64,000 bases of DNA from Leifsonia sp. TF02-11 (GTDB lineage Bacteria > Actinomycetota > Actinomycetes > Actinomycetales > Microbacteriaceae): the NCBI RefSeq assembly GCF_017565305.1, contig NZ_JAGEKP010000017.1, positions 1 through 64,000 on the forward strand, in the 5' to 3' direction. Every line of letters starts with the position of its first letter. Position 1 is the stretch's first letter. The notes under the pieces were generated by a model. The model was not told the origin of the DNA, did no database searches, and saw nothing but the letters and a program-made list of their open reading frames with translations. The translations under genes and the position numbers were made by a program. This document shows positions 7,927-43,649 of this stretch, piece by piece.

Positions 7927-8177
7927 AGACGCGCGCGCTCGACGGTTGCCTCCCGCAAACTACGTTGCAACTCAGCAAGAAGCAGCACTGCTTGTCCATC
8001 TGTCCGTCCTGCCGTCCGGAACATATCGCCCACCACACAGCCGAGTGTGAGAGATGACACGATCATCCTCAACGCAATCGAGCGGTAAGGACCCGGCATT
8101 CGTTCAGAGGCCCAATGGTCATGCGTGTGTCGGCCGTGCTTGCAAGACTGATGCGAATCAGAACAAGTGGGGGACAT

Positions 8178-10256
8178 ATGAGCTGCAATGAACATCCTCG
8201 GCAGAAGCCGCCGGTCGACGCACCAATCACGACGTCGGCCGAGGACGACCTCGGACGGGCACCGGTTGCGCACGACTTCGCGGACTCGATCCGGGAACTC
8301 GACGCTAGCCAAGGGCTTGTAGTCGGTATCTTGGGGCCGTGGGGGCACGGTAAGAGCTCGTTCATCAACCTGATGCGTGAACAGTTTGAGACCGAGCCGG
8401 CTCTTACTGTCGTTGACTTCAACCCTTGGATGTTCTCTGGTTCTAACCAGCTCGTGAACTTCTTCTTCACCGAGATCGGGGCGGAGCTCAATGTTCGCAG
8501 CAAGAGCCGCTTTGGGAAGACTGCGGACTGGCTCGCTCAGTACGCCGGCATCCTCAAGCCAGTGTCACAGTTCATACCGCTTCCAGGCGCGGCGTTCGCA
8601 GGGGAAGCAGCGGCAGCTGCGCTAAGCGGACTGGCCGACACGACGAACGCTGATCGCAGCGCGAAGAAGGTGCGGGAAGAAATCACGAAGGAGCTCATCG
8701 CGCTCGCACAACCTATCGTGGTGGTCATCGACGACATCGACCGGCTCACCACAATCGAGATTCGCGAGATCTTCAAGCTCGTCCGTCTGACGGCGAGCTT
8801 TCCGAACATCATTTACGTGTTGGCCTTCGACAGAGATCGCGTGGAGCAGGCGCTCACGGAAGACGGCGTTCCCGGCCGAGCGTATCTTGAGAAGATTGTC
8901 CAGCTGAGCTTCGATGTGCCGCAGGCGCCGGAGAAACTGCTTCGGTCGCAGGTCTTCGAAGAACTGGATCGCATCATCGCCCCCGTCGCGAACGTCACAC
9001 TCGACGAGAGCCGATGGAGCGACGTGTACTGGGAAGTGATCGACCCGCTGTTCTCGAACATGCGTGATGTGACGCGTTACGCGATCTCAGCCAGGTCAAC
9101 CATCAAGAGCCTCGGCCAAGAAATCGATCTGATCGACCTTCTCGCAATGGAGGCACTTCGCGTCTTCCGTCCTGAACTCATCCAGCAGCTATCGAAGCTT
9201 CGAGCCCAACTCACAAACACGCGCGAGATCATGGGGCGCAAGGACGAAAAAGCTCAGAAGGCCATCTCTGTTCTGCTCGAAGAGTTCCCTGACGATGGCG
9301 AACTGATCCGGGCACTCTTCAGCCGTGTGTTCCCTGCGGCGGTGCAGTACATCGAAAACAGTCACTACGGATCTAGCTGGCTCGGCACGTGGCGAACCGC
9401 GCATCGGATGGCTCACATCGACTTCATCAGTCTCTACTTCGACCGTGTCGCACCGGACGAACTAGTTGCGTTCCGAAGCTCCGAGCGGGCCTTTGAACTC
9501 CTGAGCAATGGAGCAGCGCTCAAGGAGTATCTGACCGGGTTGGACCGTGAGCAGCTCGAGACCGTCCTCGAAGGCCTCACGTCGTATGAAGCAAAGTTCA
9601 CGACCGACATGATCGTCCCGGCATCAATTACACTGCTGAACCTCATCGACACCATTCCCGAGAAGAAGCAGCGAGGCTTCTTCGACATAGGACGCCCTGA
9701 CATCACTGTTGGCCGCGTTGTCCTGCGACTTCTGCGCCGAGTCGAAGATGAGGCAGAGCGAGAAGCCCTGGTCGCGCAAATCCTCGAGGGCATCGAGACG
9801 TACTCGTCGCAACTCAACTTCATCCACAGCATGGGCTATCGCGAAGGGACAGGACACAAACTCGTAAGTGAAGGGTTCGCGGCGCTGATGTACACGGAGT
9901 TTGTCGCACGCCTCCGGAGGACCCCACCAGCCGAGCCCTCGCGTGAATGGGACGCTTGGCGCCTCTACGACACTTTGAAGACAGAGACTGGCGAAACGCC
10001 GCTCACCCCGAGTGACGATCCCGTTCTGCTGCGAGCGGTGCTGCACTCGCTCAAGTCGACTGCACGGTCGCAGTCGATGGACTCCCGACAGGTGAGGTCC
10101 GAAGATCGGCTTGCTTGGGAGCTCCTCATCCGGGTGTTCGGATCCGAAGCCGCATTAGAGGAGGCCGTAGGCAAGGTTCGGAAGGCGCTCGGAGACGACG
10201 AAACGCTCCAGCTCGCGGACAAGTACCTGGCGGGTTGGAGACCCGAGACGTTTTGA
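8178..10256 (+). CDS. KAP-family P-loop NTPase
   Basis: A 692-residue protein with the KAP NTPase signature: Walker A GPWGHGKSS (about residues 53-61) and Walker B VVVIDDIDRL (about 180-189), with an Ala/Gly/Pro-rich hydrophobic insert between them (about 128-155) that may touch the membrane, as in many KAP proteins. The C-terminal 400 residues are helical with no recognised motif. GGGGGA just upstream supports ATG 8178. KAP proteins include the F-plasmid phage-exclusion protein PifA. The position between integrase and attachment site is where cargo usually sits, so a defence role is reasonable inference. Confidence 0.8.
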   Translation: MSCNEHPRQKPPVDAPITTSAEDDLGRAPVAHDFADSIRELDASQGLVVGILGPWGHGKSSFINLMREQFETEPALTVVDFNPWMFSGSNQLVNFFFTEIGAELNVRSKSRFGKTADWLAQYAGILKPVSQFIPLPGAAFAGEAAAAALSGLADTTNADRSAKKVREEITKELIALAQPIVVVIDDIDRLTTIEIREIFKLVRLTASFPNIIYVLAFDRDRVEQALTEDGVPGRAYLEKIVQLSFDVPQAPEKLLRSQVFEELDRIIAPVANVTLDESRWSDVYWEVIDPLFSNMRDVTRYAISARSTIKSLGQEIDLIDLLAMEALRVFRPELIQQLSKLRAQLTNTREIMGRKDEKAQKAISVLLEEFPDDGELIRALFSRVFPAAVQYIENSHYGSSWLGTWRTAHRMAHIDFISLYFDRVAPDELVAFRSSERAFELLSNGAALKEYLTGLDREQLETVLEGLTSYEAKFTTDMIVPASITLLNLIDTIPEKKQRGFFDIGRPDITVGRVVLRLLRRVEDEAEREALVAQILEGIETYSSQLNFIHSMGYREGTGHKLVSEGFAALMYTEFVARLRRTPPAEPSREWDAWRLYDTLKTETGETPLTPSDDPVLLRAVLHSLKSTARSQSMDSRQVRSEDRLAWELLIRVFGSEAALEEAVGKVRKALGDDETLQLADKYLAGWRPETF

Positions 10257-10648: not shown

Positions 10649-10668
10649 TCGCCACCTGCGGTGTTGGG

Positions 10669-10741
10669 TGCGCCCCCAGGGACTTGAACCCTGAACCCAT
10701 TGATTAAGAGTCAATTGCTCTGCCGATTGAGCTAGAGGCGC
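10669..10741 (-). tRNA. tRNA-Lys (anticodon CTT)
   Basis: A 73-base cloverleaf: acceptor GCGCCTC pairs with GGGGCGC, the D arm has TAGCTC, the T arm has GGTTCAAGTCC, and the anticodon CTT (complement of 10706-10708) sits in a CTCTTAA loop. The discriminator base is A and CCA is not encoded. The 3' end faces the integrated element and is its probable attachment site. Confidence 0.95.
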
Positions 10742-10863
10742 ATTCGGTTCAGTTTCCCGGACCGAGGCTCAACATTAGCATCCGGGTCGGGCGGTTCGCC
10801 AATCGAGGGGCGTCGACGCGGAAGCCCGGGCGTGTCCGGGTGTCGGGCCGCTAGGCTCCTGGC

Positions 10864-17285: not shown

Positions 17286-18127
17286 GCGACGCGCCGCCAC
17301 CCTCTGGCGCTGTCACCCGCCCGGACGGCCGACAGGTCCGATACTTCGACACCGGAGGCGCCGAGGATGCTCCCGTGCTGGTCTGGCATCACGGGACGCC
17401 GCAGACCGGCGCCGTCATCGAGCCGGTGGCCTCTGAGGCCGCGGCCAGGGGGCTCCGAGTGGTCTCCTGCGCTCGTCCCGGCTACCCCGGGTCCGACCCG
17501 CTCCCCGGCCGCAGTGTCGCCGACGCGGCCGCGGATGTGATCGCGGTGCTCGACACGCTGGGCATCGAACGCTTCGCGACGATGGGCGCCTCGGGTGGCG
17601 GCCCGCACGCGCTCGCCTGCGCTGCACTCGCGCCGAAGCGGGCCGCGGCCGTCGTCACCTTCGCCGGAATCGCCCCGTACTGGGGCGATGTCGACTGGTT
17701 CGCCGGAATGGCCGATCCGGGTGGGCTCCGCTCGGCGCTCGCGGGCCGGCCGGCGCGACTCGCCCACGCCGAGACGGCGGAATTCGAGCCGGAATCGTTC
17801 ACGTCCCGCGACTACGAGGTGCTCGGGGCGACCTGGTCGGCACTCGGCGCCGACGCCGGCGCAGGTGCAGCCTCCGGCCCGGACGGCGAGGTGGACGACG
17901 ATGTCGCGTTCGTTTCGTCGTGGGGAGTCGAGCTGGCCGCGGTGTCAGCACCGGCGCTCCTCGTCCAGGGCGGCAGGGACCGCGTCATCCCGGCGACCCA
18001 CGCCGGCTGGATGCTCGAGCGGATCCGCCGCGGCGAACTGTGGCTGCGGCCACGGGAGGGGCACGTGTCGGTGCTGACCGCGCTGGGTGTGGCGCTGGAC
18101 TGGGTGGTGGCGGCCTCCGCGGGCTGA
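17282..18127 (+). CDS. Alpha/beta-hydrolase
   Basis: A 281-residue hydrolase. The oxyanion motif WHHGTPQTG is at about residues 34-42, the nucleophile elbow GASGGG (Ser about 103) is present, the acid is likely in VQGGRDRVIP, and the catalytic His is in REGHVSVL near the C-terminus. Insertions around residues 130-210 form the lid. The ATG overlaps the deaminase stop (ATGA), so the two are co-transcribed. The substrate is unknown. Confidence 0.87.
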   Translation: MSDAPPPSGAVTRPDGRQVRYFDTGGAEDAPVLVWHHGTPQTGAVIEPVASEAAARGLRVVSCARPGYPGSDPLPGRSVADAAADVIAVLDTLGIERFATMGASGGGPHALACAALAPKRAAAVVTFAGIAPYWGDVDWFAGMADPGGLRSALAGRPARLAHAETAEFEPESFTSRDYEVLGATWSALGADAGAGAASGPDGEVDDDVAFVSSWGVELAAVSAPALLVQGGRDRVIPATHAGWMLERIRRGELWLRPREGHVSVLTALGVALDWVVAASAG

Positions 18128-18187
18128 CGCGCGTTCCCGATGGAGAGCTCGCGACGACGACGACCACCGCTCCGTTCGAGCCAACCG

Positions 18188-19264
18188 TCAACAACTCATG
18201 CAATCCTCTCTACGCGCGACCTCTCGAATTCGCCACTCCAAGCTCATGAGGTCCATCTCCCTCACCCGATTGGTGAGGCCGAGTGGGAGGCCGAGCAGGA
18301 CGCGTAGCGCCTCCCACGCCGTCATGTTTCCCACCATTCCGGCCACCGGCGCAATGCTCCCGCCAGCGCTTGTCCGACCCTTGACGGTGGTCATGGAGAC
18401 TCTGTCGTGATCATCGCGTGTCGCCTCTCTGATGCATCGCCAGCATCGCGATCGGCCGGGCATGACCGTCACACCGGGACATCCGATGTTCCCTCCGTAC
18501 GCTCCACCGACGATATGCGGGACGCCTGCGGCCTGCGCGCTCTCGGCCACAACGTCGGACAAGGTGAATGGATCGGGATCGTCTCCGCAGCTGATGACGA
18601 GGTCGGCATCGTCGAGGATGTCAGCGAGGTCTGCCACCTCCTGGATTGATCGTCGGTGACCGGTCACCACCGCGCCGTCGTTCACGTCGGCGATCCTCTC
18701 CGCAGCGGCGACTACTTTGGCCTGACCTACGTCAGCCGTCGAATACAGGGCCTGCCGGTTCAAGTTCGACAGTTCGACGACATCAGGATCCACGATGTGG
18801 AGCCGCCCGACTCCGGCCGACGCCAACGAGTGCAGCGCCCAGGATCCGACACCGCCGATGCCGACGACGACGACTTTTGCCGTGCCGAGCCGGTCCTGCA
18901 GCTGTCGCGGCGAGGCAGGGAGGTGGTCAAAGGTCGCGATGAACTCTTCGAACAGAAGGCCCTGACGGGCGTACCGCGTATCGCCGGCCCAGCTCTCCCC
19001 CCGGCAGAGGAGGCGCTCTCTTCGAAGGAGTTCGAGGCAGTCGTCGACGGTGCTCGGGTCGTCGTCGGACGATGCGGCGAATGCAGCCCGGAGTTCGGCG
19101 ACCGAACGCGTGCCATCGACAAGCGGAATCAGTTCGATGACGGGGTCGGTCGCACGGAACTCTTTGACGCGAAGATCGCTCAGGGAGACGAACTGAAGGA
19201 GGTCGTCGTGCCGAAAGACGAGAACGCTGTTTCGGAGGCGAGGGGGACTCTGAATTGTTTCCAT
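18188..19264 (-). CDS. ThiF/E1-like adenylating enzyme with N-terminal PqqD/RRE-like domain
   Basis: A 358-residue protein and last gene of the putative RiPP operon. Residues of about 10-88 look like the winged-helix PqqD/RRE fold that grips leader peptides (VIELIPLVDGTRSVAEL, then a helix ending RRERLL). Residues of about 125-345 are an E1/MoeB/ThiF domain: GIGGVGS (135-141), the DPD acidic end of strand 2 (159-161), NLNRQ (168-171), Lys183 and SCGDDPDP (226-232). Two CxxC pairs, 274/277 and 355/358, should bind zinc; the second pair forms the very C-terminus. MccB and PaaA pair leader-binding with ThiF chemistry in the same way. It probably adenylates the precursor's C-terminal or a side-chain carboxylate. 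Confidence 0.82.
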   Translation of the reverse strand: METIQSPPRLRNSVLVFRHDDLLQFVSLSDLRVKEFRATDPVIELIPLVDGTRSVAELRAAFAASSDDDPSTVDDCLELLRRERLLCRGESWAGDTRYARQGLLFEEFIATFDHLPASPRQLQDRLGTAKVVVVGIGGVGSWALHSLASAGVGRLHIVDPDVVELSNLNRQALYSTADVGQAKVVAAAERIADVNDGAVVTGHRRSIQEVADLADILDDADLVISCGDDPDPFTLSDVVAESAQAAGVPHIVGGAYGGNIGCPGVTVMPGRSRCWRCIREATRDDHDRVSMTTVKGRTSAGGSIAPVAGMVGNMTAWEALRVLLGLPLGLTNRVREMDLMSLEWRIREVARREDCMSC

Positions 19265-19290
19265 GAGATTTGCCGCTTCAGCTCGATGTC

Positions 19291-21747
19291 TCAGATTGCT
19301 GCCAGAGCCACGAGCGGGTCGACTCTGCTGGCTCTCCGGGCCGGGCCGATCGACGCGATCGTGAGAAACGCGAAAGTGACCGCCGCGAGCAACAGGAATG
19401 CACCGGGTTCTGACGAAACCTGAAGGCTCACGCCCAATGACCCGGCGATGACCTCGGTGAGCAGCGCTCCCGCGACTTGGCCCAGGGAGAGCCCGACGAT
19501 GAGGGCGGCGGTCGACACATAGATCGCATCCCACAACACGAGGCCCGCCACACCTCGGCGACGAGCGCCGATCGCGCGGAGTGCACCGAACTCGGCCCGA
19601 CGCCGGTGCACGGAGAAGGCCATGACGCCTGAAATGCCGATGGATCCGAGCCCAAACGCGATGAGTACGACGGAGAACGCGGACGCGGCGTATGCCGCCA
19701 GCTCGGTGGTTGCCCGGTCCCGCATCCCGGCTCCCGTAATGACGGTGACTCCAGGGATGTCGCCCAATTGATCGGCGACAGCGTCGCGGACTTCCTGCGG
19801 TGAGCTCCCGGGGGATACGGAAATGTTCCATCCCGTCTCGCCGCTCAGGCCCAGCCTGTGAGCGACGGAGATCGGGATCAGCACCTGCGTCCCGGTCACC
19901 AACGAGTCGAACGTCCCTACGACCGTCACCTGTTCAGAGGCTGCGCCACGCGTGATCGCCACCCGCGCGCCCACGCCCGTCCCTGTGGACTTTGCGAGTG
20001 CCACGGGCAAGACGACCCCCGCGGACTGGCGCAGTCGTTCGGGCGTGGTCCGATCGTCTCCCTCATTCCACGGGAGCTGCGCCGCCGTGAAGTAGGTGTC
20101 GGGGTCCACCCCGAGAACGCTCACGTCGATCGGCTCGGCGGAGGACCCGACGAAGGTCGCGCGGTCTACGACCGTACCCGAAACGACTTCTACGCCAGCG
20201 ACTCCCGAAATCCTGCGCGCGATGCCGTCGTCCAATGGAACTGCTGACGTGACTTGGACATCCGCGCCGAACTGGCGTGAAATCTGTTGCGTCATCGCCG
20301 AGCTGACGGCGGACACCCCGATCACCAGGGCGAGACCCAGAGAGACGATCGCGGCGGTCATCGACGTGATCGTCCCCAGCGGATTGGATCGCTGGAGGCG
20401 CCGCGCGGATGCCCTCATCGGCCAACTCAGCGGGGTCGGGATGCGAGCCAGGAGGCTCAGAACTGTCGGTGCAAGTAACATCGACGCCGCAATCAGCCCG
20501 AGCAGCCCGATGACCTTGATTGCCGCGCTGCCAATGAACAGAGTGCCCATGGCCGGTAGCATGAGCCCGATCCCAACGCCGATTCGCACCCGACCATTCA
20601 GCTTGTTGGGATCATCGCCGGTGATCGTAGCGATCGGTGGATGGTTCAAGACCGCCACAATCGATCGCGCGGCCCCCGCAAGCCCCGCTATGAGTCCGGT
20701 GATCAGCGCCAGCGCGACCTCCCAGAGCCCGAATTCCATCGGCGGGAACGGCAGGCCGTTGTTTGCGGTCAGCAGCAGGCTGAGAAGGGCACTGACCCCG
20801 AAGCCTGCAGCAATGCCCACCGTCGAGCACACCAGGCTGAGGACTGCTGCTTCGGCGAGCACCCTGCTCGCAAGCCACTTCCCGGAGGCCCCGACGGCAC
20901 GCATGACGGCATAGGTGGAGCTCCTCGCGCGAATGGCGCCCCCCAACGCGACGGCGATGAGAACGGCAGACACGGCCACGGTGACGATGGAGGCCAGAAC
21001 GAGAACCAACGTGATGGTCGTCAAGAGCGGGCCGAGTGCGGATGTCACCGCAGACGTGTCTTGCAGTGCCGTTCCGGCCGGGAGGTGCGCGGCATTGCTC
21101 GCTTTCCATGCGTCAGCCGAACCGGAGAAGGTGAGGTCAACCCGTGTCACCTCATCCGGAGCGTGGAACAACTCTTGTGCAGTCGTCAGGCTGACGAAGA
21201 TGTTGTCGTAGGCGAGAACTCCGAGGTCGCGTGGATCGGCAATCCCGACGACGTCGAGCTCCGTTCGCCCTCCGACTGCTGCGACCGCGATCGTGTCCCC
21301 CACGCTCACGCCGAGCCGTTGTGCGATGTCCGCAGGGAGCAGAGCTTCACTTTTGCCCTCGCTCGGCAGCCTGCCCTGTGAAGCCAGCCTGCTCACCCGT
21401 GCGTTGAGCTCCGTCGAGTAGCCGGTGATCGTCAGATCGGATTGAGCGCCCGTCGCGCCACGCACGGTTGTGCCTCGGCTGAACGTCTTTATCGCCAGGG
21501 CGACGCCCGGCATGTCGGCCACAGCGGCAGCGTCGTTCTCGGAGAAGGGCGCACCGGCAGTCGTCGACACGACACCCGCCTGACCGATCCCGCCGAGTGC
21601 GTCGACCCCCGCTCGGAGCGTCGCGCCCACCGAAGCAGAGGTCACGAGAGTTCCGAACAGCAGAGCGACACCCGCCGTCAGAGCTGACGCGGCGACCGCG
21701 TACCGACGGCCCTCAGCGAAGAGCTGACGCAAGCCACGAGCGGACAT
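19291..21747 (-). CDS. FtsX/MacB-like ABC transporter permease
   Basis: An 818-residue permease with an N-terminal helix (about 15-38), an extracytoplasmic domain (about 40-235), a three-helix FtsX block (about 240-345), a central membrane pair (about 385-420), a second extracytoplasmic domain (about 460-680) and a second FtsX block to the end. This double-FtsX layout is typical of Gram-positive lipoprotein or peptide exporters and antimicrobial-peptide transporters. ATG 21747 has AAGGGGTGA upstream; the gene starts 35 bases inside the ATPase gene. With its ATPase it is the likely exporter or immunity pump of the peptide product. Confidence 0.85.
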   Translation of the reverse strand: MSARGLRQLFAEGRRYAVAASALTAGVALLFGTLVTSASVGATLRAGVDALGGIGQAGVVSTTAGAPFSENDAAAVADMPGVALAIKTFSRGTTVRGATGAQSDLTITGYSTELNARVSRLASQGRLPSEGKSEALLPADIAQRLGVSVGDTIAVAAVGGRTELDVVGIADPRDLGVLAYDNIFVSLTTAQELFHAPDEVTRVDLTFSGSADAWKASNAAHLPAGTALQDTSAVTSALGPLLTTITLVLVLASIVTVAVSAVLIAVALGGAIRARSSTYAVMRAVGASGKWLASRVLAEAAVLSLVCSTVGIAAGFGVSALLSLLLTANNGLPFPPMEFGLWEVALALITGLIAGLAGAARSIVAVLNHPPIATITGDDPNKLNGRVRIGVGIGLMLPAMGTLFIGSAAIKVIGLLGLIAASMLLAPTVLSLLARIPTPLSWPMRASARRLQRSNPLGTITSMTAAIVSLGLALVIGVSAVSSAMTQQISRQFGADVQVTSAVPLDDGIARRISGVAGVEVVSGTVVDRATFVGSSAEPIDVSVLGVDPDTYFTAAQLPWNEGDDRTTPERLRQSAGVVLPVALAKSTGTGVGARVAITRGAASEQVTVVGTFDSLVTGTQVLIPISVAHRLGLSGETGWNISVSPGSSPQEVRDAVADQLGDIPGVTVITGAGMRDRATTELAAYAASAFSVVLIAFGLGSIGISGVMAFSVHRRRAEFGALRAIGARRRGVAGLVLWDAIYVSTAALIVGLSLGQVAGALLTEVIAGSLGVSLQVSSEPGAFLLLAAVTFAFLTIASIGPARRASRVDPLVALAAI

Positions 21748-22489
21748 GCTCACCCCTTTCCCCGTCGAATCGTGCCTCCGAGTTCGATTCACGGGTCAGT
21801 TCGTCGACCACAGCGCCATCGCGCAGAGCGATGACACGGTCCGCGAATCCCGCCACCCGGAAGTCGTGGGTGACCACCACGCCGCAGCGTCCGCCAGACG
21901 CGTCGATTCCCCGACGAATGAGGCTGAGGACGATATCGCTGTTCTTCGTGTCGAGGTTTCCGGTCGGCTCGTCGGCGAGAAGAGCATCCGGACGGCCGAA
22001 GACCGCACGCCCCAGCGCCACCCGCTGGCGCTGGCCGCCTGAAAGCAGGTGCGGCATGCGGTCAGCGTGATCGATGAGATCCAGTTCGACCAGGACGTCG
22101 AGAGCGTGGGAGAGCCACTCCGACCGTCGCTTGTTCGCGACGATGGCCGTCAAGGCGACGTTCTCGATGACGGACATGGTGGGGACGAGGTGAAACGACT
22201 GGAAGACGAACCCGATGTGGTCACGCCGAAAGTCTGTGCGCTGCTTCTCGTTCAGCGAGGAAACGTCATGGCCGGCGAATGAGATGGTTCCTGTGGTGGC
22301 GTGGTCAAGCCCACCGATGAGCTGCAGGAGAGTGGACTTGCCTGACCCGGACGGCCCCACGATCGCGACGAGCTCACCCTCGCGCACGGTGAGGTCGACG
22401 CCTCGGAGAGCACGGATCTCGTTTCCCGCAGAGTCCGAATACGTCCGGGTGAGCCCCTTCACGACGATGATCTCGTCGGTTCCGGTCAT
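21713..22489 (-). CDS. ABC transporter ATP-binding protein (MacB/LolD type)
   Basis: A 258-residue ATPase with Walker A GPSGSGKST (45-53), signature LSGGQRQRVALGRA, Walker [13 protein letters not shown] and switch VVTHD. The TGNLDxKNS sequence after Walker B is characteristic of the MacB/LolD/FtsE group that energises FtsX-type permeases. ATG 22489 overlaps the stop of the upstream acyltransferase-like gene (ATGA), so translation is coupled. It pairs with the permease that begins inside its 3' end. Confidence 0.9.
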   Translation of the reverse strand: MTGTDEIIVVKGLTRTYSDSAGNEIRALRGVDLTVREGELVAIVGPSGSGKSTLLQLIGGLDHATTGTISFAGHDVSSLNEKQRTDFRRDHIGFVFQSFHLVPTMSVIENVALTAIVANKRRSEWLSHALDVLVELDLIDHADRMPHLLSGGQRQRVALGRAVFGRPDALLADEPTGNLDTKNSDIVLSLIRRGIDASGGRCGVVVTHDFRVAGFADRVIALRDGAVVDELTRESNSEARFDGERGEHVRSWLASALR

Positions 22490-23424
22490 GACGCCGCCCC
22501 GACGTGCTCGGGCTGCATCCTGTCGAATTCGTACCACATCTCCCACTCCCCGAACTCACCGGCGAGCAGTGTGCTCTCGATGACCAACCACAGTTCCTCG
22601 AGCACGAACGCGTCGTCGGCACTGCTTTGCGGCGCACTGATCGGCTCGTGGTACTCGAGCTCGAATCGCCCGTTGCCTGACGATCTCAGAGACACGGGCA
22701 CCATCGGCGCCCGTGCGGCGCGGCTGACGAGGACGGGGCCGAGCGGCGCCTGGACGGTCGTTCCCAGAAATGGCACCCGTCGATGATGAGCATCTATCCC
22801 GCGCGGATCCAGTTCCGGAAAGATCGAGAACGCGCGACCTCCACGAAGCGTGTTCAACGCACGCCGGAACGTCGATTCGGAACCCAGCTGATGCGCCTCG
22901 ATATCCAACGAGGGGAATGCGATCGCTTGGATCGCGGCGAAGTTCATCCGGTTGAAGACAAGGCTCACAGGGATGTGGTGAGCCATGATCGGACCAATGG
23001 GATAGGAGGGGCCGACATGCAGCGGTAGCGCAAGAACGCCATTGCCCTGACGCTGAGCACGGCGCAGATGATCCGACCCTGTGACCGAGACAACCTGGTC
23101 GAAGAGGAGTCCTGGGTCGTTCAGCCACAGGCTGAGATACGTCGAGTCGAATTGGAGCTGAGGGCCGTATGTCGCGAAGCGGCGCGCCTGCTGATCGCGG
23201 TCCAGGCCGGTCAATGCCGGTGCCTGGTTCATGAAGGCAATCGTCCGCTCGAAAATGGCATCCGGATGCTCCTCAGGCGGAACGTTCTCGAGATACGACG
23301 GCTCGTCGTATCGTGCAAGCTCAGCCATCAGGCTCCAGGCGCGTGCTGGTCCCGCCGCCTGGAGCGATCCGAAGAGGGCGGGATGATCCGGGAGTTCGAA
23401 GAGGTTGAAGAGCGGCATGCCCAT
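22486..23424 (-). CDS. LpxL/HtrB-like acyltransferase-fold protein
   Basis: A 312-residue protein. The middle and C-terminal parts follow the LpxL/lysophospholipid-acyltransferase pattern: LALPLHVGPSYP around His136, SESTFRRALNTLRGG (182-196), FPELDPRG (202-209) and VPFLGTTVQAPLGPVLVSRAARAPMVPVS (217-245). The expected acidic residue four after the catalytic His is missing (His136 is followed by V, G, P, S, Y), so chemistry may differ from fatty-acyl transfer. Residues 1-130 match nothing I know. GGAAGGA lies nine bases before ATG 23424. It sits directly after the precursor gene and could lipidate or otherwise acylate the peptide. Confidence 0.72.
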   Translation of the reverse strand: MGMPLFNLFELPDHPALFGSLQAAGPARAWSLMAELARYDEPSYLENVPPEEHPDAIFERTIAFMNQAPALTGLDRDQQARRFATYGPQLQFDSTYLSLWLNDPGLLFDQVVSVTGSDHLRRAQRQGNGVLALPLHVGPSYPIGPIMAHHIPVSLVFNRMNFAAIQAIAFPSLDIEAHQLGSESTFRRALNTLRGGRAFSIFPELDPRGIDAHHRRVPFLGTTVQAPLGPVLVSRAARAPMVPVSLRSSGNGRFELEYHEPISAPQSSADDAFVLEELWLVIESTLLAGEFGEWEMWYEFDRMQPEHVGAAS

Positions 23425-23464
23425 TGAGACAGGTTCCTTCCGATGCGCCGCAACCGATAGGCGA

Positions 23465-23494
23465 GAGTGCGGCGGCGGCGCCTCCGCCGCACTC
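23465..23494 (-). terminator. Hairpin between the precursor gene and its operon (attenuator or processing site)
   Basis: A perfect 11-bp stem (23465-23475 with 23484-23494) and an eight-base loop, about 10 bases after the precursor stop codon. No U-run follows. Hairpins here are common in peptide-antibiotic operons, where they let precursor mRNA outnumber the enzyme mRNA. Confidence 0.55.
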
Positions 23495-23502
23495 ACACGG
23501 GG

Positions 23503-23577
23503 TCAGCTACACATGCACTGGCTGCCACAGGCGAGCGTTGCGCCGGCCTTCAGGTCGATGTCCTTGATCTTCTCCAC
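23503..23577 (-). CDS. Putative RiPP precursor peptide, 24 residues, Cys-rich C-terminus
   Basis: GTG 23577 is preceded by AAAGGAGGTGA with seven-base spacing, the strongest ribosome site seen in the window. The peptide begins with a charged amphipathic stretch (MEKIKDIDLKAG, the likely leader), passes through ATLA, and ends CGSQCMCS, with three Cys at 17, 21 and 23 and a terminal Ser. It is followed by a hairpin and then by acyltransferase-like, exporter and ThiF-like genes on the same strand. The tiny frame, excellent initiation signals and context argue for a modified-peptide precursor. It is not homologous to any precursor I can name. Product and modification are unknown. Confidence 0.8.
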   Translation of the reverse strand: MEKIKDIDLKAGATLACGSQCMCS

Positions 23578-23624
23578 AGATTCACCTCCTTTGAACAATG
23601 CTTCACTCTGAAACATTAGTTTCT

Positions 23625-23653
23625 AGTTTTGCGTTCTACACATTTGTTGTCAA
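23625..23653 (-). promoter_or_regulatory. Probable promoter of the RiPP-like operon
   Basis: On the minus strand, TTGACA (complement of 23648-23653) is followed after 17 bases by AAAACT (complement of 23625-23630), inside an AT-rich island unlike its surroundings. The spacing is ideal and the -35 is a consensus match, while the -10 is only fair. The start point would fall near 23617, giving a leader of about 40 bases before the GTG. Confidence 0.5.
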
Positions 23654-23854
23654 ACTCGAACCATCGGGTGCGTCCAGATGGCGAGACTCGCTCGGAACGC
23701 GAGGATTACGCTTCGACCAGGTCGCAAGCCAGACGCGCCGCCGCGCCCGACACACTCGACTGATCGCCCCCCGTTTTGGGGCCACGACCGCTGGGCCACG
23801 CGCACATCGGCCCGCCAGAATGGGTTCGGTCCCCCTTCGAATCCTGGAGTCGAG

Positions 23855-24739
23855 ATGAGTCGTGCGCGCGCTCTCGCCGTCATCGTCGCCGGCGTGATCG
23901 CCGGCGCAGCCCTGAGTTCCGCCATCGGCGCGGGCCCCGCGTCGGCCTGCACGGGGTGGGGTTCCGACTGGACGCCGGCCGCGGGATCGACAGTGCCGGG
24001 AACGGTGGGCACCTCGCTCGTGCCGACGGTGATCACCTACGACAGCGGTCTCAGCTCACTGCTCACCCTCGACTCGGTCGCGCCCGACCCCGCGACGCTC
24101 GGCCTCACCGTCAGCAGCCTGGAGCGGTTCGTCGGGGCGACCTCGTTCCTCGACATCTATGTCACGGGCACTCCGACGCACGCCGGGACGCAGCAGCTGA
24201 CCTTCACTGTCGCCGGGATCGGTGTCGGCTGCGGCGCGGGGACGGAAGCGGCCGCGTTCGACTTCACCTTCGGCCAGGGGTCCCAGAGCATCGCCGTGCC
24301 CGCGCCCACCCCCGGTGTGCGGGCCGGGCAGAGCCTCGCGCTCTCCGCGACCGCGACGTCCGGCCTCCCCGTGACCTACTCGGTCGCACCGGCCGCCTCG
24401 ACGGTCTGCTCGGTGTCCGGCGCGACGCTCTCCTTCCTCACGGCCGGCACGTGCACGGTGGAGGCCGCACAGGCGGGCAGCGCCGACTGGCTTCCGGCCG
24501 GCGTCGCCACGGTGAGCTACACGGTGCTCGCCGCCGACCCTCTCGCCGCATCCCCTGCGCCGCCGGTGAATCCGGCGCCGCCTGCGGATCCGGGACCGCA
24601 GCTGGCGGCGACCGGGCTTCCGGTCGCGCCGCTCCTGTGGCTGGCGACCGTTCTCGCGCTGCTCGGATGCGCACTGCTGTCCGCGCTCCGCTTCGCGCCG
24701 CGCCTCAGCGCGCTGCGCGACGCGAATCGCCGCCACTGA
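23855..24739 (+). CDS. Secreted, sortase-anchored surface protein (LAATG motif)
   Basis: A 294-residue protein. A signal peptide (about 1-32) ends in PASA-CTG. The body has immunoglobulin-like beta-rich repeats (for example around VTYSVAPAASTVCSVSGATL, residues about 170-190). A Pro/Ala-rich wall-spanning linker leads to LAATG (about 249-253), a hydrophobic helix and a basic tail (LRDANRRH). LAxTG is the sortase signal used by class E sortases in high-GC actinobacteria. ATG 23855 is chosen because it opens the signal peptide. The ligand is unknown. It is divergent from the RiPP-like operon with 277 bases between. Confidence 0.82.
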   Translation: MSRARALAVIVAGVIAGAALSSAIGAGPASACTGWGSDWTPAAGSTVPGTVGTSLVPTVITYDSGLSSLLTLDSVAPDPATLGLTVSSLERFVGATSFLDIYVTGTPTHAGTQQLTFTVAGIGVGCGAGTEAAAFDFTFGQGSQSIAVPAPTPGVRAGQSLALSATATSGLPVTYSVAPAASTVCSVSGATLSFLTAGTCTVEAAQAGSADWLPAGVATVSYTVLAADPLAASPAPPVNPAPPADPGPQLAATGLPVAPLLWLATVLALLGCALLSALRFAPRLSALRDANRRH

Positions 24740-24812: not shown

Positions 24813-24836
24813 GTTTCTGTTCCCGAAGGAGAGAAC

Positions 24837-34023: not shown

Positions 34024-34069
34024 CGCGCGATGACGACCATCGGTGGAGATGGGGGGAATCGAACCCCCG
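34024..34069. repeat. Right attachment site within the ssrA 3' end
   Basis: The 46-bp repeat covers the last 26 bases of tmRNA and 20 bases beyond it. Because the repeat restores the tmRNA acceptor and T-arm, ssrA stays intact after insertion. The partner copy is at 30840-30885. Confidence 0.85.
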
Positions 34070-34436
34070 TCCACTGCTGTGGTCATGTGCCTTCTACGGG
34101 CGTAGCCAGTGAAGTCGCTTTCTCAGCCCCGGAACTTGTCGCTGGCACCTGCTCCGACGGGCTCAGTATCAGTTGGAGTCCCTCTGCGCCCTGATGCTCA
34201 ACGCAGAAGCAAGTCTTCTAGCTGACGCCAGGATCCGGGTAGAAGACAGTTCCCGGTCTGACGGTCTCTTCAAATGGCGAAGGGGAACTTACGCCGCGAG
34301 GGCGAAGTCGGCCTTGGCCGAGACAGTGCTCTTGTTATTGGCACTTATTTTTTCGCATGGATCGTTTACGAGATAACCATGCATCCTCGACCCGCTTCTC
34401 ACACTCTCGCAGACAATGTCGAAACCGATCATCCCC
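34044..34436 (-). ncRNA. ssrA: Transfer-messenger RNA (tmRNA)
   Basis: The 5' end GGGGATGATCGGTTTCGAC has the universal tmRNA start and pairs through GGGGATG with CATCTCC at the 3' end. The 3' part holds the T-arm sequence GGGTTCGATTCCCCCC. The tag frame (34342 down to 34289) encodes A-N-N-K-S-T-V-S-A-K-A-D-F-A-L-A-A and stops at TAA; the ALAA ending is the ClpXP degradation signal. CCA is not encoded (the genome has CCG at that position). It rescues stalled ribosomes with SmpB, encoded nearby at 36917-37393. Confidence 0.92.
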
Positions 34437-43564: not shown

Positions 43565-43649
43565 GCGGGAGTGGTGAAACTGGCAGACACGCAGGATTTA
43601 GGTTCCTGTGCTTCACGGCGTGAGGGTTCGAGTCCCTTCTCCCGCACCA
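43565..43649 (+). tRNA. tRNA-Leu (anticodon TAG)
   Basis: An 85-base type II tRNA. Acceptor GCGGGAG pairs with CTCCCGC. The anticodon arm CAGGA-TTTAGGT-TCCTG presents TAG at 43599-43601. A long variable arm (TGCTTCACGGCGTGA) is typical of Leu/Ser tRNAs, and GGTTCGAGTCC forms the T loop. CCA is encoded (43647-43649), unlike in tRNA-Lys at 10669. Confidence 0.95.

Follow-up and report, generated by a model that had tools for sequence, protein, structure and literature searches.

A candidate peptide cassette with an MccB/PaaA-like ThiF enzyme and a remodelled LpxL-like protein in Leifsonia sp. TF02-11

What kind of product is made by a compact operon that encodes a 24-residue, Cys-rich peptide beside an LpxL-like protein, an ATP-binding cassette (ABC) exporter, and a ThiF-type adenylating enzyme? 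This question is raised by a locus of Leifsonia sp. TF02-11, located in the 64-kb stretch of contig NZ_JAGEKP010000017.1 analyzed here (64,000 nucleotides, positions 1 to 64,000; hereafter the window). The original prediction, made from the sequence of the window, described the locus as an operon for a ribosomally synthesized and post-translationally modified peptide (RiPP). This assignment is highly probable: a precursor frame accompanies the LpxL-like gene at all six loci found, the ThiF protein resembles MccB and PaaA, and the exporter belongs to the MacB/LolCDE type. The five genes, i.e., those for the precursor, the LpxL-like protein, the ABC ATPase, a double-FtsX permease, and the MccB-type ThiF protein, all lie on the minus strand and occupy an entire 5.7-kb segment. 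They are as tightly spaced as had been described, with a 78-base gap, a 4-base overlap, a 35-base overlap, and a 26-base gap from the precursor to the ThiF gene, and the cassette is a self-contained unit. Furthermore, Pfam analysis of the four larger proteins revealed no class-defining enzyme of the YcaO/azole, lanthipeptide, lasso, or radical-SAM kind, as predicted.

The precursor peptides

The precursor of the window, MEKIKDIDLKAGATLACGSQCMCS, is read from a GTG start seven bases behind a GGAGG Shine-Dalgarno sequence and ends in CGSQCMCS, in agreement with the original prediction (GTG and TTG starts are written as M in all precursors). The prediction had also proposed a look upstream of homologous LpxL-like genes for short Cys-rich frames, and such frames, led by Shine-Dalgarno sequences, are present in 6/6 loci: the window; genome G004, a second species of the genus (MEKVKDIDLQAGATLACGSQCMCS); three Frigoribacterium genomes, Leaf8, G1143, and G1145, which have one precursor in common (MKKIESTTLKPGSAARCNGGCLCT); and Candidatus Lumbricidophila eiseniae, with three tandem precursors (MQKISDVALRSGATLRCDRGAGCLCT, MWKISDSVLRSGAMVACSGSGGGCLCT, and MRKIMDCPLRSGAALACSGSGTGCLCT), each with its own Shine-Dalgarno sequence. 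A lack of conserved frames at these sites, the result that would have counted against the original prediction, was not observed. The six distinct peptides are 24–27 residues long and share a leader of the form M-x-K-x5-L-x2-G, Cys17, a spacer of 3–6 residues, and a terminal C-[LM]-C-[ST]; M1, K3, L9, G12, and Cys17 are invariant, Cys-x3-6-Cys-x-Cys is found in every peptide, and the last residue is always Ser or Thr. Glu is absent from all six cores, and five of them contain neither Asp nor Glu. The tandem frames of Lumbricidophila (L066:3077-3521), with spacers of 5, 6, and 6 residues after Cys17, represent a natural series of core variants served by one enzyme set.

An accidental short frame was considered and rejected on the basis of conservation across the loci and of pattern searches, in which a frame M-x15-C-x3-6-C-[LM]-C-[ST]-stop occurred once in the 64-kb window and never in 100 order-3 Markov resamples, with no further match in the window or the five other loci. 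A degenerate pattern of the window core matched 2 of 28 genomes of the genus, i.e., both cassette genomes, with 0 control matches. Between the window and G004, the precursor codons differ by three synonymous changes and two replacements, both in the leader, and between Leaf8 and G1145 by three synonymous changes and no replacement. In each of the four operons folded, the last precursor is followed by a stem-loop, whose position is shared and whose stem differs in sequence between the window and the other three; it could set the precursor-to-enzyme ratio. Compared with mononucleotide shuffles, its folding energy is only slightly low and not unusual in the window (z −1.1) and lower in the others (z −2.4, −2.1, and −4.6); in Lumbricidophila, neither of the spacers that separate the tandem frames folds better than shuffles (z 0.5 and 1.1).

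The adenylating enzyme, the LpxL-like protein, and the exporter

The ThiF protein (Pfam ThiF, E 5e-51) is a probable leader-binding E1 enzyme of the MccB/PaaA kind, as judged from its structural model and from profile comparisons. In Foldseek searches, MccB chains occupied ranks 1–15 (349–362 columns, TM 0.52–0.57; best E 5.9e-16 over 359 columns) and PaaA rank 16 (E 8.1e-15); the superposition root-mean-square deviation was near 13, implying that the domains match better than their relative placement. Furthermore, hhalign matched the protein to an MccB-like plasmid protein of Lactiplantibacillus plantarum (100%, 325 columns, 29% identity). Among solved structures, profile comparison placed MoeB and ThiF at the top on the E1 core, with MccB spanning profile positions 76–361 and PaaA 42–206, and VIA-align, which barely tested the N-terminus, placed MoeB slightly over MccB. 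Curated ThiF/MoeB models score under their cut-offs (132.9 of 275.25 and 130.5 of 266), and nothing was seen that would link the protein to cofactor synthesis, a molybdopterin or thiamin role being the outcome that would have spoken against the original prediction. The residues G135/G137/G138/G140, D159, N167, R170, Q171, K183, D228, C274, and C277, which we take to have the roles known for MoeB, are invariant in five aligned proteins; this alignment, in which one row (L067) includes upstream bases and lacks the C-terminus, also supplied the profile and hhalign queries; the structural model was built with corrected ends. The G004 protein (L009:15780-15990) has an extended C-terminus and lacks the final Cys of the CxxC presumed to bind zinc.

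The N-terminus, about 95 residues longer than in housekeeping MoeB/ThiF, is where a PqqD-like RiPP recognition element (RRE) had been predicted. An RRE is likely here, as suggested by an AlphaFold model of three sequences (mean predicted local distance difference test (pLDDT) 68) that has, with low confidence, the order b-b-b-a-a-a ahead of the E1 domain, the strand/helix order of the RRE. Among the N-terminal pieces of five ThiF proteins, PaaA-like_N was matched by one (E 0.14), RiPP_bind_ApyI by three (E 0.0014–0.008), and a PKMT winged helix by three (E 0.0014–0.21), all under cut-offs, and the piece from the window matched none of these. The MccB/PaaA-like architecture is upheld, although with a low-pLDDT model and weak profile matches the RRE fold itself is unproven.

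Two ThiF homologues were observed in other settings. Nonomuraea gerenzanensis carries a full-length homologue (38–39%, N-terminal domain included) on NZ_LT559118.1 (L041:10001-11083), an 11.85-Mb record filed as a plasmid and chromosome-sized. It is adjoined by no LpxL-like or FtsX gene recognised by eye and by no match to the precursor pattern, and is possibly part of another RiPP-type locus. On the L. plantarum plasmid NZ_CP028335.1 (L042:4734-7192), an MccB-like ThiF gene adjoins a major facilitator superfamily (MFS) transporter gene in a microcin-C-like arrangement, and two further listed L. plantarum plasmids carry the same ThiF match.

The LpxL-like protein, by sequence comparison, is a real but distant member of the LPLAT superfamily, related to PatA and LpxL: its match to PF03279 (Lip_A_acyltrans) is weak but above the cut-off (26.4 bits, cut-off 22.3), and hhalign with 19 PatA-like proteins, fetched as control loci among 73 class-level genomes with weak partial matches, gave 98.7% over residues 103–298. 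The predicted homology is upheld, whereas the addition of an acyl group by this protein is not borne out, the catalytic motif of the superfamily being absent. All 19 controls keep H-x-x-[NS]-W-D, whereas H-x4-D is missing from all five distinct cassette copies, which carry LPLHxG[PA]SY at this site; likewise, the Glu of 17/19 controls is replaced by Asn (VFNRMN). The position of the catalytic Asp corresponds to Ser140 or Tyr141, depending on the placement of a one-residue gap. As far as sequence comparison can tell, the site has lost its usual catalytic residues yet has not decayed, because other residues there are invariant; in a four-row alignment H136, Y141, N158, R159, E204, D206, R208, H213, and H214 are all conserved. 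The structure model of this protein (pLDDT 45) was too poor to use. A role in the acylation of phosphatidylinositol mannosides or lipid A was rejected, given that the gene is the sole PF03279 match in the genome and the motif is lost.

The predicted exporter pair is confirmed by Pfam, and the permease contains two FtsX stretches as described; the nearest models of the ATPase are LolD and MacB, all below their cut-offs. FtsX-type pumps handle lipoproteins and lipopeptides.

Borders, promoter region, and distribution of the cassette

The cassette is absent from the same site in both congeneric genomes compared by blastn. In G026 (L074), the alignment ends at 18112 of the window and restarts at 23809; G026 has 93 bases in place of the intervening stretch. 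In G023 (L075), it ends at 18129 and restarts at 24820, and this longer missing stretch includes a secreted-protein-like gene next to the cassette. The flanking genes, named by eye as adenosine-deaminase-like and amino-acid-permease-like without a family search, lie 7.55 kb apart in the window. Of 27 congeneric genomes, 10 have the best matches to both genes separated by 0.1–2.2 kb; in the remaining 17, the matches are non-adjacent or one is not found. The segment has a GC content of 64.3%, compared with 70.7% and 69.7% in the flanking 5 kb. The neighbors elsewhere, also read by eye, are a ddl-like gene upstream and lipoprotein and thiL-like genes downstream in G004, arabinose-type genes and a luciferase-like monooxygenase in Frigoribacterium, and membrane proteins and met-type genes in Candidatus Lumbricidophila eiseniae. 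Because of this presence or absence and these differing neighbors, the cassette has probably moved between genomes, although no mobility gene was recognised within the 5.7-kb segment.

Table 1. Positions of the cassette and its features in the window
Feature	Position	Strand	Basis
Cassette segment	18113..23808	.	blastn against G026; ends are alignment ends, approximate
E1/ThiF adenylating enzyme, 358 aa, RRE-like N-terminal domain (about 14–85), MccB/PaaA architecture	18188..19264	-	Pfam, Foldseek, hhalign, profiles, model
Permease, 818 aa, two MacB_PCD and two FtsX stretches	19291..21747	-	Pfam, curated models
ABC transporter ATPase, LolD/MacB/FtsE kind	21713..22489	-	Pfam (ABC_tran), curated models
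LpxL/PatA-like (LPLAT superfamily) protein, remodelled active site, 312 aa	22486..23424	-	PF03279, hhalign, motif check
Stem-loop behind precursor stop codon, 11-bp main stem	23465..23494	-	Folding
Precursor peptide gene, 24 aa, leader 1–16, core CGSQCMCS	23503..23577	-	Reading frame, comparison, pattern search
GGAGG Shine-Dalgarno sequence of precursor	23585..23589	-	Seven bases ahead of GTG start
TTGACA hexamer, -35-like, no good -10 recognised	23648..23653	-	Sigma-70 scan, base reading

Upstream of the precursor, the promoter proposed in the original prediction is upheld in part. The TTGACA hexamer is present, 76 bases ahead of the precursor start in the window and 78 bases ahead in G004, but a sigma-70 scan of 17900–24000 returned no acceptable two-hexamer site (shuffles 0.7 ± 0.8). 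No TTGACA lies within 300 bases of the precursor in the two Frigoribacterium loci inspected, and in Lumbricidophila merely TTGAC is found, 281 bases ahead. A terminator scan found none (shuffles 2.6 ± 1.5). Similarly, the “AT-rich island” is confined to the 83 bases ahead of the precursor (36% GC) and was overstated for the segment as a whole.

All five genes were read, in the same order, at four loci that represent three genera, namely, the window, G004, Frigoribacterium sp. Leaf8, and Candidatus Lumbricidophila eiseniae; for G1143 and G1145, the reading covered only the precursor and the LpxL-like gene. When 99 relatives were searched with the LpxL-like protein alone, it matched its own genome and G004, with six weak partial matches besides. 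Full-length LpxL-like relatives were found in 2 of 28 genomes of the genus, in 2 of 398 genomes of the Microbacteriaceae sample (its own and Leaf8, G440), in Leaf8 only in a second family draw of 398 largely identical genomes, and in its own genome only in the order (396 genomes) and class (394 genomes) samples, the latter being the source of the 73 genomes with weak partial matches. At most five candidates were scored per genome in the larger samples, so a few members could be missed. In the genus of Leaf8, 3 of 16 genomes carry an LpxL-like relative, and a three-sequence profile against a public genome collection confirmed two loci, Leaf8 and Candidatus Lumbricidophila eiseniae, among 65 pattern stretches. 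LpxL-like searches by single-sequence contig scan and in viral contigs gave nothing useful. By tblastn, the protein of the window had no match in plasmids and phages, and that of Leaf8 matched four weak plasmid records (three lipid A acyltransferases and one annotated glycosyltransferase).

Elsewhere in the window, the lowest GC content among 2-kb windows (58.5%) falls at 8001–10000, outside the cassette; a tmRNA gene with the tag ANNKSTVSAKADFALAA lies at 34042–34436 on the minus strand, and tRNA-Lys and tRNA-Leu genes lie at 10665–10742 and 43565–43649, respectively.

Proposed pathway, alternatives, and relation to known systems

In the pathway that we propose, the 16-residue leader (M-x-K-x5-L-x2-G) would be bound by the RRE-like N-terminal domain of the ThiF protein, whose ThiF domain would spend ATP to adenylate a core carboxylate. 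The most likely group is the C-terminal carboxylate of the conserved Ser/Thr, because Asp and Glu are missing from five of the six cores; provided that the core is a substrate of the E1 enzyme in the manner of its relatives, C-terminal adenylation is slightly favored. The activated acyl group could then be captured by a core Cys (Cys17 or the first Cys of C-x-C), thiol capture being the simplest fate because three Cys residues are conserved, to yield a macrothiolactone or a derived product, although the macrothiolactone itself is a tentative suggestion. The LpxL-like protein may aid or follow the ring step by non-standard catalysis, and the ATPase/FtsX pair would export the product and may confer self-protection. 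This pathway as a whole, i.e., a RiPP cassette that has probably moved, with a ThiF-adenylated core, Cys capture, and export, is the best explanation at hand, and we rate its chances of being right or wrong as equal. The odds are against the stricter form, a new RiPP class in which an RRE-E1 enzyme activates the C-terminal Ser/Thr of C-x3-6-C-x-C-[ST] and a rebuilt LPLAT-fold protein closes the ring, but this form deserves consideration.

Unlikely, and slightly behind that stricter form, is a lipidated RiPP, in which the LpxL-like protein would acylate Cys, Ser/Thr, or the N-terminus, the ThiF enzyme would make another change, and the LolCDE/MacB-type pump would export a lipopeptide. The LPLAT homology, the nearest (sub-threshold) ATPase models, and the substrates of FtsX-type pumps are consistent with this route, but it is difficult to reconcile with the replacement of both H-x4-D and the control Glu in every cassette copy, though other residues stay invariant. 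Improbable to a further degree is a secreted metallophore-like peptide, in which ThiF would yield a C-terminal thiocarboxylate or other non-cyclic derivative and the Cys set would chelate metal; ThiF and MoeB act in this way on their carriers, and the Cys pattern of all six peptides would suit it, but no sulfur-transfer, receptor, or metal-uptake gene was recognised in the 5.7-kb segment.

Other readings dispense with a peptide product. That the short frame serves as an attenuator leader through which the exporter/enzyme operon senses cysteine is very improbable: the stem-loop behind the Cys-rich frame in all four folded operons fits, but attenuation requires Cys codons alone, whereas the non-Cys leader residues M1, K3, L9, and G12 and the length to Cys17 are constant, Lumbricidophila has three copies with separate Shine-Dalgarno sequences, and one enzyme of the operon is of a kind that binds leaders. 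Scarcely credible is an accidental neighborhood around a ThiF protein of sulfur-carrier, molybdopterin, or thiamin metabolism or of an E1-type anti-phage system. Although MoeB and ThiF are the best sequence matches among solved structures and PADLOC E1-E2 models match the E1 core (best E 4.1e-20), the five-gene order is identical in four loci of three genera with differing neighbors, and no ubiquitin-like carrier, E2, or JAB gene was recognised in the segment. Housekeeping and defence E1 functions were rejected in view of the extra N-terminal domain, the different partners, and a further E1/ThiF-type match elsewhere in the genome (G000:C13).

If the proposed pathway is correct, ThiF-type RiPP chemistry, which to our knowledge has so far involved Asn (MccB) or Glu (PaaA), would be extended to C-terminal activation of another residue; under the stricter form, peptide acyl transfer in ring closing would be a new use of the LPLAT fold. 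The partner of the E1 enzyme comes from a superfamily of lipid acyltransferases and has lost the catalytic motif while other residues stay fixed, a combination suggestive of a new reaction. The locus is a promising candidate for a new type of natural product, and its small size (5.7 kb) and seeming completeness open the whole pathway to direct testing.

Among known systems, housekeeping MoeB/ThiF work with a ubiquitin-like sulfur carrier and lack the N-terminal extension of the cassette enzyme. PatA/LpxL acyltransferases are homologous to the LpxL-like protein over the region aligned above and differ from it at the replaced catalytic positions. AgrD autoinducing peptides would have a Cys-to-C-terminus thiolactone in common with the product, if our inference is right, but the cassette ring would arise from ATP-dependent adenylation, and no AgrB-type protease or receptor was recognised. 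Pantocin A (PaaP/PaaA) probably shares its RRE-ThiF architecture with the cassette enzyme, with a weak PaaA-like_N match in one relative; PaaA acts on a Glu-Glu-Asn core, whereas the cassette cores lack Glu, are Asp-free in five of six cases, and contain three conserved Cys residues. Microcin C (MccA/MccB) shares a short precursor adjoining a single peptide-clamp and ThiF enzyme, with a structural match over the full length. MccA, a heptapeptide with a terminal Asn, undergoes nucleotidylation, and its exporter belongs to the MFS, whereas the cassette combines precursors of 24–27 residues, with a leader and a Cys-rich core ending in Ser/Thr, with an ABC FtsX pump and an additional LPLAT-like partner.

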